A stretch of DNA of 64,000 nt from Candidatus Aminicenantota bacterium. GTDB lineage: Bacteria; Acidobacteriota; Aminicenantia; Aminicenantales; UBA4085. The stretch covers positions 1-64,000 of the forward strand of contig PLMN01000003.1 in the NCBI GenBank assembly GCA_003141555.1, in the 5' to 3' direction. The translations under genes were made by a program, and so were the position numbers. Under the pieces are notes generated by a model. It searched no databases, was not told the DNA's origin, and saw nothing but the letters and a program-made list of their open reading frames with translations. This document shows, piece by piece, positions 13,835 through 20,852 of this stretch. Each line of letters begins with the position of its first letter. Within the stretch, counting starts at the first letter, position 1.

Positions 13835-13875
13835 TTGTAAAATATATTTACAACCCAGAACATTGAGCCTATACT
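13835..13875 (+). promoter_or_regulatory. Enhancer-like dyad overlapping a sigma-70-type promoter
   Basis: TTGTAAAATATATTTACAA at 13835-13853 has perfect 7-bp arms around a 5-bp centre. Its right half is also the -35 (TTTACA, 13847-13852) of a promoter with a 17-bp spacer and TATACT at 13870-13875. The dyad centre lies 83 bp before the -24 GG of the sigma-54 promoter at 13925. The same dyad recurs at 19812. It is a candidate binding site for the NtrC-type regulator encoded in this operon, able to enhance the sigma-54 promoter and block the sigma-70 one. Confidence 0.6.
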
Positions 13876-13924: not shown

Positions 13925-13941
13925 TTGGCATAAACCTTGCT
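13925..13941 (+). promoter_or_regulatory. Sigma-54 promoter of the sensor operon
   Basis: TTGGCATAAACCTTGCT matches the TGGCAY-N5-TTGCW consensus. The -24 GG (13927-13928) and -12 GC (13939-13940) are separated by exactly 10 bp. The predicted start is near 13952, giving a leader of about 34 nt to the ATG at 13986. Confidence 0.75.
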
Positions 13942-13985: not shown

Positions 13986-15623
13986 ATGAAAGCCGATTTG
14001 CGCCGCCGAGAAATCCAGCCTGGCTCCGCGATCGGAATTCTGGCGGCCGCGGTTGTGTTCGCCGCCGCGCTCTTCTCAGACGCCCGCATCCAGGATCCCG
14101 CCCCTCAGCCGGGCGGCACGCTTCGGGTGCGCGGGTTCGCCGAGTCTCCCAAGCCCGACCTCGACCCCGCGTCGGGCCGATGGGTGTTCGTTACCGAGCA
14201 GATTTACGACGGCCTGGTCCGGCTCGACGAGAAGCTCGAGCCGACCCCCCGGCTCGCCCAGTACTGGACCATCTCCAAGGACGGCCGGACCTACGTCTTC
14301 GACCTGCGCCCGGGAGTGAAGTTCCACAATGGCGATGACCTGACCTCCGCGGACGTGAAGTTCTCGCTCGAGCGGTTGCTCCGGCGCGAGACGAACTCCC
14401 CGGTCCGCGATTACTTCCTGGCCCGGATCGCCGGGGCCCGCGAGTTCGCCGAGGGGAGGGCAGAAGGCGTGGCCGGGTTCCGCTGCCCCAACGACGCCAA
14501 GTTCGAGATCCAATGGTTGAACCCCGAGGTGTCGGCCCTCACCCTCCTGAGCCTGAGCTTCTGCAAGATTTTGCCGCGCAAAGCCGTCCTCGCGGGCGGC
14601 GCCTCGTTCTTCTACAAGCCCGCCGGGACGGGGCCGTTCAGGTTCGATTCCTACGTCCTCAGCCCCAAGGGCGAGATCATGGGCGTCCGGATGGAGCGCA
14701 ACCCCGACTATTACGGGAGGAAGGCGTACCTCGACGCGATCGAGTTCAGCCCCTATTATACGGTCGAGCATTTCCTGAGCCGGGAGATCGATATCATCCC
14801 CTTCCTGTCGGACCGTCTGGCGCTCGGCAATAATCCCGTCCTGGACGCCGGCCCCGGCCCGGTGAGCTACCTCCTGATGAGCTGCGCCAATCCGCCCCTC
14901 GACCGCCCTCTGGTCCGCAAGGCCCTGGCCTTGGCCATCGACAAGGGGAAGCTGGTCGCCGCGGTGCCCGACCGCGAATTCGTCCAGAGGCCGACCAACA
15001 ACTTCATCCCGCCCCGCTGGCCGGACTTCTATCCGCTCGACGACCCGTCGCTCTTCGACCGGGCCAAGGGCCGCCAGATGCTCGAGGATATGAGCTACTT
15101 CTTCGACAAGCCGTTCCCGCGACTCCTCGTCCTGCTCCCGGCGTCAATGCGGGACTCGGGGGCCGGGGCCAGGTTCTTCGATGAGCTGGCGTCGCAGTTC
15201 GGGAAGATCGAGGTCCCGCTGAGCCTGAAGTATTATCAATCGCTCCGCGAGGTCAAGGACTACCGCCAGCCGTTCCTGGCGCTCGCCGAGTGGGCCCCGG
15301 ATTTCCCCGATCCCGAGAGTGTCCTCCGCCCGCTCTTCCATTCCCGTTCGGAGATCAACCTCGCCAATGGGCGCTATGCCAACCCCCGGGTCGACGCCTT
15401 GCTCGAAGAGGCGGTCCAGGAGACGAGCCTGAGCCGCCGCAACGAGCTGTTCCGGCGGATCGAGCTCCTCCTCGGCGAGGACGTCCCCGCCGTCCCGCTC
15501 TACTCCAACGATCCGCGGATCGTCGTCCAGTCCACTGTCCGCGGGATCAAGATCCCGCTGATGGGCTTCGCCTATCTCGACGCCCGGGACATCTGGCTCG
15601 CCCGGAGGGACCTGCCCCAGTGA
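13986..15623 (+). CDS. Extracellular solute-binding protein, family 5 (DppA/OppA-like)
   Basis: The 545-aa protein has a short charged N-terminus, a hydrophobic export or anchor segment (about residues 17-35), and the SBP_bac_5 fold: GGTLRVRG at the start, VTEQIYDGLVRLD, WTISKDGRTYVFDLRPGVKFHNGDDLTSADVKFSLER, and a late YSNDPRIVVQ region. Such proteins normally deliver oligopeptides or similar ligands to ABC permeases, but no permease or ATPase gene is here. The next genes are a histidine kinase (GTGA overlap) and its regulator, so it probably acts as a ligand-sensing partner of the kinase. The ATG is chosen because it directly precedes the signal segment and lies after the predicted sigma-54 start. 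Confidence 0.85.
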   Translation: MKADLRRREIQPGSAIGILAAAVVFAAALFSDARIQDPAPQPGGTLRVRGFAESPKPDLDPASGRWVFVTEQIYDGLVRLDEKLEPTPRLAQYWTISKDGRTYVFDLRPGVKFHNGDDLTSADVKFSLERLLRRETNSPVRDYFLARIAGAREFAEGRAEGVAGFRCPNDAKFEIQWLNPEVSALTLLSLSFCKILPRKAVLAGGASFFYKPAGTGPFRFDSYVLSPKGEIMGVRMERNPDYYGRKAYLDAIEFSPYYTVEHFLSREIDIIPFLSDRLALGNNPVLDAGPGPVSYLLMSCANPPLDRPLVRKALALAIDKGKLVAAVPDREFVQRPTNNFIPPRWPDFYPLDDPSLFDRAKGRQMLEDMSYFFDKPFPRLLVLLPASMRDSGAGARFFDELASQFGKIEVPLSLKYYQSLREVKDYRQPFLALAEWAPDFPDPESVLRPLFHSRSEINLANGRYANPRVDALLEEAVQETSLSRRNELFRRIELLLGEDVPAVPLYSNDPRIVVQSTVRGIKIPLMGFAYLDARDIWLARRDLPQ

Positions 15624-17077
15624 AGCTGACGATGACCCTTCCCCGGCGGTTCACCTTGTGGATCGCCTTCCTGCTGGTCATCCTCGTCGGGGCGATCACC
15701 TGGGTGACGGAGCGGCGGGAGGTCAGCACCATCTACGAGGAGACGAAGAACAAGGGCGTCCTGATCGCCAAGAACCTCATCGACCACAATCTCCGCTACC
15801 TCCTCAACTACGACTACGACGGCCTCCAGACCGGCATTCGGGAGCAGCTCGACGACCGGCTCCTCTACGTCGTCTTCTACGACAAGTTCGCGACGGCCAT
15901 CGCCTATAACCGCGAGATCGCCGAATTGAACGCGGTCTACTGCTGCAGCCGCCTCCAGGGCGACAACCGGCCGGACAGCGTCGCCGCCCAGGCCAAGGAC
16001 GTGGCCCTCGGCGGGAAGCTCCGCCCCGTGATCGAGATCGAGATCCCGATCTTCATCCACGGCTCGTCCGACCGCTGGGGCTCGGTCAAGGTCGGCCTGT
16101 CGCTCGCCGAGATGCGGGCCGAGGTCCGCCGGACGCGCCTCGTCCTGATCCTGATGGGCCTCGTCGGCTTCCTCCTCGGCCTCGGCGGGGCGACCGTCCT
16201 CGCCCGCCGCATCTCCCGCCCCATCGAGAAGCTGGTCGAGGGGACGGTCCGCATCTCCCAGGGCGATTTCGACCATCGGATCGAGATCTCCTCCGAGGAT
16301 GAGATCGGGAACCTGGCTCGGAGCTTCAACGACATGACCGCCCGCCTTCTTGACGCCCGGGGGCAGATGGAAGACGCCCACCGCAAGCTCGTCCAGGCGG
16401 AGAAGCTCGCCTCGATCGGCCGGCTTGCGGCCACGATCGCCCACGAGATCCGCAACCCCCTCACCTCGGTCAAGCTCAACATCCAGAAGATCGTCGAGGA
16501 CGGCCGACTCGGCCCCCCCGAAACCGAGCACCTGGCCATTTCCCAGGAAGGCATCGCTCAGATTGAGAAGTTCATCAAGGAGCTCCTGAACTATACGCGC
16601 GTCGCGGAGCTCCATCCGGAACGCTTCCCCGTGGCTCTGATCCTCGAGGAATCGGCCAAGGTCCTGGCCGACGCCTTCCGCGAGAAGCGGATCGCGCTCG
16701 AGAAGCGGATCGAGGACGGCCTGCCCGAGATCCTCGTCGACGGCGACAAGATGCGGCAGGTCTTCCTCAACGTCCTGCGCAACAGCCTCGAGGCGACAAG
16801 CCCCGGGGGCCGGATCAAGGTGACCGCCGCCCGGGGCGAGGGCGCCGCCGCCGGGAAGGTTCGGGTCCGCATCTCGGACGGCGGCTGCGGCATTCCTGAG
16901 AAGGACTGGGAGAACATTTTCGAGCCCTTCTACACCACGAAATCCTCGGGGATCGGGCTGGGCCTGGCCATCTCCCGCAGGATCGTGGAGCAGCACAAGG
17001 GCACGATCCGCGTCGTCCGGAAGCGGGGTCCGGGGACGGCTTTCGAGATCCTCATCCCCGTCGAGGAGGCCTCATGA
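15620..17077 (+). CDS. Membrane sensor histidine kinase
   Basis: The 485-aa protein has a first transmembrane helix (about residues 14-30), a periplasmic region to about 172, a second helix (LVLILMGLVGFLLGLGG), then a HAMP domain with the downstream EDEIGNLARSFNDM motif. HisKA carries the phospho-acceptor in HEIRNPLTSVK (about H275). HATPase has NSLEA, DGGCGIP and GIGLGLAISRRI boxes. Its class matches NtrB/ZraS-type kinases. The GTG start overlaps the solute-binding-protein stop, and its stop overlaps the regulator start (ATGA), a tight three-gene unit. An ATG four codons later is an alternative start. Confidence 0.92.
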   Translation: MKLTMTLPRRFTLWIAFLLVILVGAITWVTERREVSTIYEETKNKGVLIAKNLIDHNLRYLLNYDYDGLQTGIREQLDDRLLYVVFYDKFATAIAYNREIAELNAVYCCSRLQGDNRPDSVAAQAKDVALGGKLRPVIEIEIPIFIHGSSDRWGSVKVGLSLAEMRAEVRRTRLVLILMGLVGFLLGLGGATVLARRISRPIEKLVEGTVRISQGDFDHRIEISSEDEIGNLARSFNDMTARLLDARGQMEDAHRKLVQAEKLASIGRLAATIAHEIRNPLTSVKLNIQKIVEDGRLGPPETEHLAISQEGIAQIEKFIKELLNYTRVAELHPERFPVALILEESAKVLADAFREKRIALEKRIEDGLPEILVDGDKMRQVFLNVLRNSLEATSPGGRIKVTAARGEGAAAGKVRVRISDGGCGIPEKDWENIFEPFYTTKSSGIGLGLAISRRIVEQHKGTIRVVRKRGPGTAFEILIPVEEAS

Positions 17078-18408
17078 AATCCATCCTGATCATCGACGAC
17101 GATGCGCTCATCCGGAGGACGCTCTCGGCCCGCCTGGCCAAGCAGGGCTTCGACGTCCGGACGGCCGAGGATGGGGAGTCCGGCCTCAAGGCCCATGCCG
17201 AGGGCTGCCCCGATCTCGTCCTCCTCGACATGCGCCTGCCGGACATCGACGGCCTCGACGTCCTCCGCAGGATCCGGGAGCGAGGCTCCCGGTCGGCCGT
17301 GGTCATCATGACCGCCTACGACGACATGAAGACCACGGTCGAGGCCATCAAGCTCGGGGCGTTCGAGTATCTGGTCAAGCCGCTCGACCACGTCGCCCTG
17401 GACCTGACCGTGTCCACGGCCTTCCAGGTGAAGGCCCTCGAAGAGAAGGTCAGCTACCTCGTCGAGGAGAAGAAGAAGGAATACACGATCGACGCCATCG
17501 TCGGCCGCTCGGCCCCGATGCGGGCCGTCTTCAAGCTCATCGGCTCCGTGGCCAACACCCGGGCGAACGTCCTCATCCAGGGCGAGAGCGGCACGGGCAA
17601 GGAGCTCGTGGCCAAGGCCATCCACTACAACAGCCCCACCCGCGATGAGCCGTTCATCGTCATCAACTGCTCGGCCATCCAGGACACGCTCCTCGAGAGC
17701 GAGCTCTTCGGCCATGTCAAGGGCGCGTTCACCGACGCGGTCTGCGAGACGAAGGGCAAGTTCGAGATCGCCGGCAAGGGCACGCTCTTCCTGGACGAGA
17801 TCGGGGACGTCTCGCCCAACCTCCAGTCGAAGCTCCTCCGGGTGATCGAGACGCGCGATTTCATGAAGGTCGGCGGGGAGCGCGTCCTCAAGACCGAGGC
17901 CCGGATCATCGCCGCCACGAACCAGAGCCTCCGGGCCCTGATCGAAAGCGGCCGGTTCCGCGAAGACCTGTTCTACCGGCTCCAGGTCGTGGAGATCAAC
18001 CTGCCCCCGCTCCGTGAGCGGCGGGAGGACATCCCCGGGCTCGCATCCTACCTCCTGGAGAAGATCAACCGCGAGCTGAGGAAGAACGTCAGCAAGGTCC
18101 CGCCGGAGGTCATGAAGATCCTGATCGAATCCCCCTGGAAAGGCAACGTCCGGGAGCTCGAGAATGCCCTCACCCGGGCGGCCATCCTGGCCAAGGGCGA
18201 CGTCGTCCTGAAGGAGAACCTGCCCCTGGAACCGGAGGAGCCCAAGCGCTTCTCCCCGGAAATGGTCTCGCTTGAGGATGTGGAGAAGGACTATATCCAG
18301 CACGTCTTGTCTGCGGTCAAGGGAAGCAAAACCCGGGCCAGCCAGATTCTCAAGATCAGCCGTCCCACCCTGGACAAGAAGATCAAGGACTTCAGCCTCG
18401 AGATCTGA
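17074..18408 (+). CDS. NtrC-family sigma-54-dependent response regulator
   Basis: The 444-aa protein has three domains. The receiver domain has its phospho-acceptor near D52 (LLDMRLPD), with TAYDD and VKPLD downstream. The AAA+ domain has Walker A GESGTGKE (about 170) and the sigma-54-contacting GAFTDA loop (about 217). A C-terminal Fis-type helix-turn-helix lies near 400-440 (TRASQILKISRPTLDKKIK). It should activate sigma-54 promoters when phosphorylated by the preceding kinase. Three such promoters lie nearby (13925, 18492, 19899). The gene overlaps the kinase by 4 nt. Confidence 0.95.
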   Translation: MKSILIIDDDALIRRTLSARLAKQGFDVRTAEDGESGLKAHAEGCPDLVLLDMRLPDIDGLDVLRRIRERGSRSAVVIMTAYDDMKTTVEAIKLGAFEYLVKPLDHVALDLTVSTAFQVKALEEKVSYLVEEKKKEYTIDAIVGRSAPMRAVFKLIGSVANTRANVLIQGESGTGKELVAKAIHYNSPTRDEPFIVINCSAIQDTLLESELFGHVKGAFTDAVCETKGKFEIAGKGTLFLDEIGDVSPNLQSKLLRVIETRDFMKVGGERVLKTEARIIAATNQSLRALIESGRFREDLFYRLQVVEINLPPLRERREDIPGLASYLLEKINRELRKNVSKVPPEVMKILIESPWKGNVRELENALTRAAILAKGDVVLKENLPLEPEEPKRFSPEMVSLEDVEKDYIQHVLSAVKGSKTRASQILKISRPTLDKKIKDFSLEI

Positions 18409-18416
18409 CCGCCCCT

Positions 18417-18433
18417 TTTACGTTCCTGTAAAC
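18417..18433 (+). promoter_or_regulatory. Weak dyad upstream of the second sigma-54 promoter
   Basis: TTTACGTTCCTGTAAAC contains TTTAC and GTAAA half-sites about 69 bp before the -24 GG at 18494. The half-sites resemble those at 13835 and 19812 but are arranged outward, so this is a weaker candidate activator site. Confidence 0.3.
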
Positions 18434-18440
18434 TTTTTTG

Positions 18441-18470
18441 GCCCGGCCGGCCCCTCGGCCGGCCGTTTCC
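18441..18470 (+). terminator. Possible terminator after the NtrC-type gene
   Basis: GGCCGGCC and GGCCGGCC arms separated by CCTC, followed by GTTTCCCC. The stem is strong but the T-run is short, so a terminator role is only likely. It would separate the sensor operon from the sigma-54-driven receiver gene. Confidence 0.4.
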
Positions 18471-18491
18471 CCTGATATTTCAGCCTCGGAA

Positions 18492-18508
18492 TTGGCACAA
18501 AACCGGCT
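18492..18508 (+). promoter_or_regulatory. Sigma-54 promoter of the receiver-domain gene
   Basis: TTGGCACAAAACCGGCT has a perfect -24 block (TGGCAC) and a GG-N10-GC spacing (18494-18495 and 18506-18507); the -12 block is CGGCT rather than TTGCT. The predicted start is near 18519, leaving a 28-nt leader with AAAGGA before the ATG at 18547. Confidence 0.65.
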
Positions 18509-18546: not shown

Positions 18547-18933
18547 ATGCCAGGCCCCAAAATCGTCGTCGTCGATGACGAGGAAACCATCCGGAAGACG
18601 TTCTTCCTCATCCTCGGCAAGCAATACCGCGTCTATCTGGCGAAGGACGCGACCGAAGCCCTGTCCCGGTTCAAGAGCGCCGGCGTCGAGCTCATGATCA
18701 TCGATTACCGGCTCCCGGACATGACCGGGATCGAGCTCGTGACGGAGCTCCGCAAGGGCGGATACCGGGGCGACGTCATCCTTATCTCCGCCCATTCCGA
18801 TATGATCGAACCCGCCATCCTCAGCCGGCTTTCCATCAGTCATTTCTTCGCGAAGCCCCTGGACCTGAACGCCTTGAGCCGCTCGATCGACTACCTCCTC
18901 AGCCTGCGCACTCCGTCCGAAAAGCGGGCCTGA
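18547..18933 (+). CDS. Stand-alone receiver-domain response regulator
   Basis: A 128-aa single receiver domain with the acidic pair in VVVDDEET, the phospho-acceptor in MIIDYRLPD, the switch serine in LISAHSD and the lysine in FAKPLD. There is no output domain, so it must act through protein contacts or as a phosphate sink. It follows an NtrC-type operon and carries its own sigma-54 promoter, which makes it a probable output or feedback element of that system. AAAGGA lies 6 nt before the ATG. Confidence 0.9.
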   Translation: MPGPKIVVVDDEETIRKTFFLILGKQYRVYLAKDATEALSRFKSAGVELMIIDYRLPDMTGIELVTELRKGGYRGDVILISAHSDMIEPAILSRLSISHFFAKPLDLNALSRSIDYLLSLRTPSEKRA

Positions 18934-19811: not shown

Positions 19812-19830
19812 TTGTAAGAGATATTTACAT
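19812..19830 (+). promoter_or_regulatory. Second copy of the TTGTAA/TTTACA dyad
   Basis: TTGTAAGAGATATTTACAT matches the 13835 dyad at 15 of 19 positions. Its centre is 80 bp upstream of the -24 GG at 19901, almost the same offset as the 83 bp at the first site. This is the position expected of an NtrC-type enhancer. Confidence 0.55.
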
Positions 19831-19898: not shown

Positions 19899-19915
19899 TT
19901 GGCACGATATATGCA
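19899..19915 (+). promoter_or_regulatory. Sigma-54 promoter in the permease/MerR intergenic region
   Basis: TTGGCACGATATATGCA has the -24 GG (19901-19902) and -12 GC (19913-19914) exactly 10 bp apart, and a full TTGGCACG -24 block. The predicted start is near 19926. No protein start lies within 200 bp. Confidence 0.72.
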
Positions 19916-19925
19916 ATTAAGATAA

Positions 19926-20035
19926 GCACTGAACGATCGGGCTGAATTAAACCCGGTGGTTCCTCTTCAACTCTCTTCCTTTCGGGGGGAGGCGACCCCG
20001 ATAATCCAATTCCTAAATCGCCTCCCCGTTTGTCC
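19926..20035 (+). ncRNA. Candidate sigma-54-driven small RNA
   Basis: Downstream of the sigma-54 promoter there is no reading frame. The sequence contains a small hairpin (CGGG/CCCG, 19938-19955), a CU-rich single-stranded stretch (TTCCTCTTC and CTCTTCCTTT, about 19959-19983) complementary to ribosome sites, and a 10-bp GC-rich stem (GGGGAGGCGA at 19986-19995 with TCGCCTCCCC at 20018-20027) followed by GTTTG. This layout resembles regulatory RNAs that pair with Shine-Dalgarno regions. It could instead be a long leader of the MerR gene, but that gene has its own TTGACA promoter further down. Confidence 0.45.
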
Positions 20036-20048
20036 GAATTATCATTCC

Positions 20049-20122
20049 TTGACAAGGCCATATTTATTATATATATGTATACGTACGTGATTAGTAAAAA
20101 ATGCTATAACCTATACGTATAG
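20049..20122 (+). promoter_or_regulatory. MerR gene promoter with two TATACGTA dyads
   Basis: TTGACA at 20049-20054 with TATATG at 20072-20077 (17-bp spacer) is a likely promoter. TATACGTA occurs at 20078-20085 and again inside the perfect 12-bp palindrome CTATACGTATAG (20111-20122), 34 bp apart and just before the start codon. These look like autoregulatory operators for the MerR-type protein. Confidence 0.45.
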
Positions 20123-20129
20123 AGGCATT

Positions 20130-20852
20130 ATGGAAGAAGACATTTTGACCAAACAAGATCTGTTGAGGAAGACGGGGATGGGGGAAGCGGACTTGGCCTC
20201 CTGGATCCGGGAAAAGATCGTCCGTCCGACGGGCTTCACGGACGACAAGGAGCCGCTCTTCGCCGCGGACATTACGGAGCGGATCGATTCCCTCCGCAAG
20301 CTGGCCGAGCTCGGCTACGGCTTGCCCGAGATCCACAAGATTATGAAGAAAGTCGGCCTTCCGAAGGATGGGAACGGCAAAAAGCCCCATCCCGAAAAAG
20401 ACCGCTATTTCACCGTCGGACAGCTTGCCGAGCGCTCGGGCGTCAGCCCCCGGACGATCAAACATTGGGAGGACAAGGGGATCATCGGGCCCGACATGCG
20501 GACCGAAGGCGGGTTCCGGCTCTATTCCGAGCCCTATGTCATGATCTGCCAGCTCGTCCTCGACCTCCAGCTCTTCGGCTACTCGCTCGAGGAGATCAAG
20601 GCCGTCTCCGACGACGTCCGGGGCATGCTGGCCCTCGAGGCCGAGGTCGAGGCGTTCCCGAAGCCCGAGGCTGAGGAGAAGCTCGCGGCCATGCTCCGCG
20701 AGATCCAAGGCCTGTTCGAAAAGATGAGGCTTTTTCGCGAGGGCGTCGACCGCTGGGAAGACCTCCTCAAGAAGAAAAGAAAGGACGTTCTGAGCCTCCG
20801 GGCCCGGAACCAGAAACGACCGGACCCGGTCAAGGACGAAGCCCATGCCTAA
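20130..20852 (+). CDS. MerR-family regulator with two tandem HTH domains
   Basis: The 240-aa protein contains two MerR-like winged-helix units. The first covers residues 6-75 (LTKQDLLRKTGM, then LAELGYGLPEIHKIMKK). The second covers about 88-160 (YFTVGQLAERSGVSPRTIKHWEDKGII, then FRLYSEPY and LFGYSLEEIKAV). The second is canonical; the first is more diverged. The C-terminal helix could dimerise, and no cysteine effector loop is seen. It overlaps the B12-radical SAM gene by 8 nt, implying they work together. Palindromes upstream suggest autoregulation. Confidence 0.8.
   Translation: MEEDILTKQDLLRKTGMGEADLASWIREKIVRPTGFTDDKEPLFAADITERIDSLRKLAELGYGLPEIHKIMKKVGLPKDGNGKKPHPEKDRYFTVGQLAERSGVSPRTIKHWEDKGIIGPDMRTEGGFRLYSEPYVMICQLVLDLQLFGYSLEEIKAVSDDVRGMLALEAEVEAFPKPEAEEKLAAMLREIQGLFEKMRLFREGVDRWEDLLKKKRKDVLSLRARNQKRPDPVKDEAHA

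Follow-up and report, generated by a model that had tools for sequence, protein, structure and literature searches.

NtrC-type two-component systems that activate sigma-54-dependent sRNA genes are known from Pseudomonas and Azotobacter, in which CbrA/CbrB controls CrcZ/CrcY (PMC6292655). In enterobacteria, QseE/QseF (GlrK/GlrR) and GlmY likewise combine an NtrC-family regulator, a sigma-54 promoter, and an adjoining sRNA gene, and GlmY serves as a decoy for RapZ (PMC8745638, PMC7073468). The csRNAs of streptococci are also under two-component control (CiaRH), and they have two stem-loops as well as an unpaired stretch complementary to the Shine-Dalgarno sequence and start codon (PMC3091779). 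Here, we describe a predicted sRNA in a 64-kb window, i.e., the whole stretch of DNA of an uncultured Candidatus Aminicenantes bacterium that was analysed, and compare it with these systems.

Promoter and activator site of the RNA gene

The first-pass annotation had proposed a sigma-54 promoter pointing into a non-coding stretch. This promoter, TTGGCACGATATATGCA, was found at 19899-19915 on the plus strand by a consensus scan and by comparison with relatives, and no other site in the 64 kb came within one mismatch of TTGGCACGNNNNTTGCW. Taken alone, the promoter was no more than suggestive, since matches to the sigma-54 consensus with up to three mismatches were as frequent in the window (19) as expected by chance (shuffle mean 18.3). 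The single-genome signals were not far above chance; the case for an RNA gene was settled by comparative evidence. The TGGCA...TGC promoter elements were unchanged across the 12 genomes of the family (f1); the loci read in these genomes carried TTGGCA-N7-TGC everywhere, with ATGGCA once. The predicted RNA start is at approximately 19926, 12 nt past the GC element. An upstream activator site (UAS), TGTAAGAGATATTTACA, is located at 19813-19829 on the plus strand and is centred 105 bp before the predicted start. It matched TGTAAA-N5-TTTACA at 11 of 12 positions, and none of 300 shuffles was equally good. In most relatives this palindrome also stands ahead of the RNA, mostly at -98 to -107.

Structure and conservation of the RNA

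The predicted RNA spans 19926-20036 on the plus strand, with an approximate 3' end, as judged from fold and conservation. Its predicted fold had a minimum free energy of -38.8 kcal/mol (z = -3.1), and z-scores over the RNA loci examined ranged from -3.1 to -6.1. A 5' hairpin (19936-19957; 19936-19941 with 19952-19957) is followed by a CU-rich core (19962-19983) and a 3' stem-loop (19986-20027), in which GGGGAGGCGA (19986-19995) pairs with TCGCCTCCCC (20018-20027). Both the short hairpin and the 10-bp GC stem of the first-pass annotation were thus recovered in place, and the CU-rich segment, which it had described as exposed, was predicted to be unpaired with a mean probability of 0.93 across 19963-19983; the values among RNA loci were 0.73-0.97. 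The unpaired Shine-Dalgarno-complementary segment between hairpins that marks the anti-Shine-Dalgarno class is present, and reads UCCUUUC in f1. The 3' stem is of the terminator type in relatives, where it ends in CGCCTCTTTTTTTT; this sequence was found at the RNA end in most genomes of genera g2 and g5. In the window genome the stem is followed by GTTTGTCC with no terminator U run, and a simple terminator scan of the window did not report it. We disfavoured a small-protein reading because the predicted transcript in the window genome contains no ATG.

A similarity search with 181 bp of the region against 59 related genomes matched the own genome and all 11 other f1 genomes, always on the CU-rich core. 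Outside the family, this BLAST-type search gave chance matches only (L013 onward). The core includes an invariant 14-nt sequence, ACUCUCUUCCUUUC, in 12/12 f1 genomes; in window coordinates, ACTCTCTTCCTTTC (19970-19983) was unchanged across the 12 genomes and five genera. The GAGGCG...CGCCTC stem was invariant among the f1 loci read. The 5' hairpin was present in g1, g2, and g5; g3 and g4 lack it, and their promoter lies directly next to the core. Paired changes were observed in g2/g5, one in the 5' hairpin (A-U to G-C) and two in the 3' stem (G-C to A-U, A-U to G-C). In total, 98.5% of alignment cells pair, and slid structures showed no two-sided change. The stems are therefore kept with some compensatory changes, which was the check that had been proposed, and covariation is present but modest, as only three pairs changed on both sides.

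A covariance model detected the RNA in 12/12 f1 genomes and in 2/2 genomes of family f7. The f7 core, TTCCCTCCTTTC, includes CCUCCUUUC, which we take to be the 16S rRNA tail. The f7 promoter, TTGGCATGTAAATTGCA, was read in the one f7 genome whose contig extends far enough. Across the order, class, and phylum sample, covariance models gave convincing matches in f1 and f7 only; the other matches inspected were coding-like or unrelated, except for a look-alike in g81. When 84,980 species genomes were scanned for the pattern, 10 Aminicenantes/Acidobacteriota contigs carried the full element, and the named records among them are Candidatus Aminicenantes or Acidobacteriota MAGs. Nine further contigs, which had neither the hairpin nor the promoter of the element, were judged to be chance matches, and so was a single viral contig. 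Rfam gave no match for the whole window at the gathering score and no relevant match for nine loci at E <= 1. Comparative sequence data thus confirmed a real, conserved sRNA gene of approximately 100 nt adjoining a two-component system, with a predicted transcript delimited by the conserved promoter and the terminator-type hairpin.

The look-alike in g81, which belongs to another class of the phylum (L078-L080), is a conserved element, ACACCTCCTTTCAGGGGGCGGCGGGG...CCCCGCCGCCCTTCCTTTT, in which CTCCTTTC can pair with the upstream GAAAGGAG. No sigma-54 promoter was visible at L078-L080. It was not counted because of this pairing and the lack of a visible promoter, and it may be an RNA in its own right that contains a Shine-Dalgarno/anti-Shine-Dalgarno switch.

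Two-component operon and its probable regulon

Upstream of the RNA and in the same orientation (plus strand), Pfam identified an operon encoding a solute-binding protein of family 5 (SBP_bac_5, 13986-15623), a sensor histidine kinase (HAMP-HisKA-HATPase, 15632-17077), an NtrC-type response regulator with receiver, sigma-54 activator AAA+, and Fis-type HTH domains (17074-18408), and a stand-alone receiver protein (18547-18933). The operon was seen upstream of the RNA wherever the contig reaches far enough, several draft contigs ending earlier; in G005, the two are separated by other genes. An ortholog of the sensor kinase was present in 82 of 93 genomes of the order. One palindrome, TGTAAA-N5-TTTACA, precedes both the operon (centre -108) and the RNA (-105). 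The operon copy, TGTAAAATATATTTACA (13836-13852, plus strand), is perfect (12/12), and a sigma-54 promoter, TTGGCATAAACCTTGCT, was found by consensus scan at 13925-13941 on the same strand. The enhancer site, a feature of the sigma-54/NtrC class of sRNAs, is hence shared by the RNA and the two-component operon. The genome encodes RpoN, and the NtrC-type regulator is the presumed activator of the RNA. Neither this controller (the adjacent two-component system and the UAS) nor the regulon was part of the first-pass annotation.

Within 18427-18508, the gene for the lone receiver appears to be preceded by a sigma-54 promoter of its own and a weak UAS: the consensus scan gave a sigma-54-like promoter, TTGGCACAAAACCGGCT, at 18492-18508 (plus strand), and the UAS matched at 9/12 positions. 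In most other loci examined, a UAS and sigma-54 pair also precedes the receiver gene and is stronger there. The lone receiver may act as a phosphate sink or second output.

The exact sequence GTAAA-N5-TTTAC occurs three times in the window genome, with a sigma-54 promoter after each. The promoter follows at 108 bp for the site of the two-component operon, at 85 bp for that of a secreted-looking protein on C18, and at 121 bp for that of a large protein on C19. In the 12 family genomes we found 51 exact UAS sites, 43 of which had an oriented sigma-54-like promoter 64-121 bp downstream. Orientation tests were positive in 44/104 cases (one site counted twice) versus 4% at random positions, with a promoter score cut-off that was the analyst's choice and identical for sites and control. 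The UAS-promoter distances were stepped at 10.6 bp (42 values, R = 0.80, 0/5000 random sets), which is the phasing expected if the activator must occupy one face of the helix.

Genes found behind the UAS sites include, besides those of the operon, two that recur, encoding a secreted-looking protein and a large protein with no match in Pfam, and others for an M16 peptidase and an ABC transporter ATPase. This content may suggest a role of the regulon in peptide or envelope homeostasis. The two recurrent families have no Pfam match, and many members have a signal-like N-terminus; judging from their upstream regions, they look like core regulon members. In the window genome, they are represented behind a UAS and sigma-54 promoter at G000:C18:53850-53864 (L103) and G000:C19:69779-69793 (L104), and their counterparts in the family are L135-L137, L142, L146, L150, L156-L158, L163, L166, and L167. 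The same arrangement was seen in one or two genera before the M16 peptidase (L159, L164) and the ABC ATPase (L160, L171), and likewise before proteins with ankyrin repeats (L140) and a beta-lactamase fold (L145). At G000:C7:164110-164124 (L109), a one-mismatch UAS is followed 139 bp on by a sigma-54-like site before a TonB-like protein.

Related elements in other families

We compared the layout of 40 kinase loci of other families; most of them contain a UAS and sigma-54 promoter dedicated to the receiver gene. An additional sigma-54 promoter follows the receiver gene in 14/14 loci of family f6 and 3/3 loci of g13, a genus of family f5. Of these 17 loci, 15 had a scored UAS, and the other two (G034 and G044) came from a looser scan without UAS scoring. 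Behind this promoter is a stretch without a credible gene that combines a strong hairpin with CU-rich cores. The element of G042 is, in addition, crossed by a frame of 273 codons, which we regard as incidental. The cores are AACCCTCCTTCTTT in g10 and g22 and CCCTCCCTTCCCTCCTTC in g13, and the anti-Shine-Dalgarno segment of f6 is CCUCCUUC. In g15, a pyrimidine-rich tract of approximately 50 nt with repeated GCCCTTCTTT was invariant in six species. The loci with this tract are L228, L233, L245, L249, L255, and L257, where a variable GGAGGGAG..CTCCCTCC hairpin precedes the repeated CCCTTCTTT units. The f3, f4, and 15 other f5 genomes examined showed no such element next to the system, and a pyrimidine-run scan of the hitless loci gave no further sRNA beside the system, save in two more f6 genomes.

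The f6 and g13 RNAs do not align readily with that of f1, and we therefore infer common descent from position, promoter, and design. It is conceivable, as a tentative generalization, that a nearly order-wide system keeps its own sigma-54-driven anti-Shine-Dalgarno sRNA in several families. The RNA sequence would turn over wholly, with promoter, enhancer, position, and CU-rich design kept, and the sensor would dampen the translation of many genes through RNAs resembling the 16S tail.

Mode of action

The main reading, to which we give a probability of roughly 0.65, is a stand-alone, trans-acting anti-Shine-Dalgarno sRNA of about 85-110 nt that is driven by the adjacent NtrC-type system via sigma-54. 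The comparative sequence data support the existence of the gene and its promoter, the activator site, the architecture, and the link to the system; we infer that the RNA is transcribed in vivo, that the NtrC-type regulator binds the UAS, and that the RNA acts by base-pairing and repression. The sensor kinase, perhaps together with the solute-binding protein of the operon, would phosphorylate the NtrC-type response regulator. The regulator would then bind TGTAAA-N5-TTTACA and activate sigma-54 polymerase at its own operon and at the RNA, as well as at the receiver gene in most families and at genes for secreted or peptide-related proteins. The RNA would display its CU-rich single-stranded core between the 5' hairpin and the terminator hairpin, and this core would pair with the Shine-Dalgarno regions of target mRNAs and block translation. 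In this way, the membrane sensor probably adjusts the translation of other genes through the RNA, the likeliest action of which is translational repression in trans. The RNA could even be a broad translational regulator. The CU-rich anti-Shine-Dalgarno reading is supported by the extreme conservation of the exposed segment and by cores in other families that look unrelated but are equally CU-rich. In addition, the reverse complement of several cores (f7, g10, g15) reads as a Shine-Dalgarno sequence, a spacer, and a start codon, as is reported for csRNAs (PMC3091779).

Target searches were made with two patterns in one family. The complement of the 20-nt core, with up to three mismatches, gave only two lone three-mismatch matches elsewhere in the 12 genomes, and AGGAAGAGA just before ATG in the f1 genomes gave no gene that recurred across genera as a credible start. 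Clustered matches were rejected, as they lay inside long reading frames or were confined to one genus. This null result is compatible with many short pairings, without demonstrating them. The missing long mRNA complement would also suit an RNA that acts as a decoy, in which the CU-rich core titrates an RNA-binding protein, be it Hfq-like or some other regulator that binds CU, in the manner of CrcZ and Hfq-Crc. The wiring of the system resembles CbrAB-CrcZ (PMC6292655), and the long invariant pyrimidine tract of g15, with its repeated CCCUUCUUU units, is what repeated protein sites would give. Furthermore, the genome encodes an Hfq-related protein of 136 aa with a long N-terminal extension (G000:C25:23538-23681, minus strand; L031:1450-1857), for which Pfam Hfq_1 scored above and Hfq below the cut-off. 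However, most versions of the RNA hold one or two short cores and no array, and every core reads as anti-Shine-Dalgarno, the complements in f7, g10, and g15 extending to the start codon. We consider a decoy unlikely.

A real sRNA with a non-Shine-Dalgarno target or another action, for example, one dedicated target per clade, would fit a core that is invariant within a clade and wholly changed between clades, with targets changing along with the RNA. This appears improbable: pairing with ribosome sites is the simpler explanation because the cores of all clades stay anti-Shine-Dalgarno in character.

The gene behind the RNA in the window encodes a MerR-family regulator (20130-20852, plus strand), which Pfam and synteny mark as a separate neighbour outside the system. 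The first-pass annotation had assigned it a TTGACA promoter of its own. The box is present at 20049-20054 with TATATG 17 bp further, giving a sigma-70-type promoter (TTGACA-17-TATATG) at 20049-20077 on the plus strand; a promoter scan of the window scored no sigma-70 promoter before MerR, and two relatives whose sequences were read have TTGACA-17-TATGAT and TTGACA-17-TATATT at the matching place. Since MerR is close behind the RNA, as in some relatives, and the terminator U run is weak, read-through into MerR is possible. It is nevertheless very improbable that the element is a 5' leader or attenuator of the following gene, a reading that had been considered at the outset and that we rejected on synteny, because the RNA is conserved while unrelated genes follow it (MerR in g1, g3, and g4; mostly Mur-ligase-like in g2, g5, and f7), a strong terminator with a long U run ends it in g2, g5, and f7, and a TTGACA promoter separates it from MerR in g1 and g4.

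Comparison with known systems

In the literature collection searched, no paper on Ca. Aminicenantes was found that also mentions small RNA or sigma-54. The locus adds to Ca. Aminicenantes, Acidobacteriota, a well-delimited sRNA with its promoter, enhancer, presumed activator, and co-regulated genes. The conserved UAS makes the regulon readable, and the constant layout with a changing RNA sequence means that sRNA evolution can be traced by promoter and position where homology search fails.

The CrcZ and GlmY/GlmZ families should be contained in Rfam release 15, and the RNA matched neither of them at the gathering score or, for nine loci, at E <= 1. To our knowledge, GlmY has no CU-rich core. 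As crcZ adjoins cbrB, so the RNA described here stands beside an NtrC-type system (PMC6292655). CrcZ differs in that it antagonises Hfq-Crc, whereas the present RNA is approximately 100 nt long with a CU-rich core. GlmY differs in its action on RapZ, and the QseF/GlrR site is TGTC-N10-GACA rather than TGTAAA-N5-TTTACA (PMC8745638, PMC7073468). The csRNAs are close in architecture but have CiaR-type promoters with TTTAAG repeats, occur in up to several copies per genome, and belong to Gram-positive hosts (PMC3091779). The promoter of the RNA is instead of the sigma-54 type, and no sequence relation with csRNAs was seen. RsaE and LhrC, UCCC-type CU-rich sRNAs of Firmicutes, are said to bind Shine-Dalgarno regions through exposed CU-rich segments; they are not known to be linked to sigma-54, and the RNA here matches no Rfam family. 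By sequence, the RNA is thus placed outside the CrcZ, GlmY, and csRNA families. The best reading by analogy is a wiring like that of CbrAB-CrcZ and QseEF-GlmY with an RNA like the csRNAs, so that sigma-54 control by a two-component system and anti-Shine-Dalgarno pairing, both known designs, would be joined in one locus.
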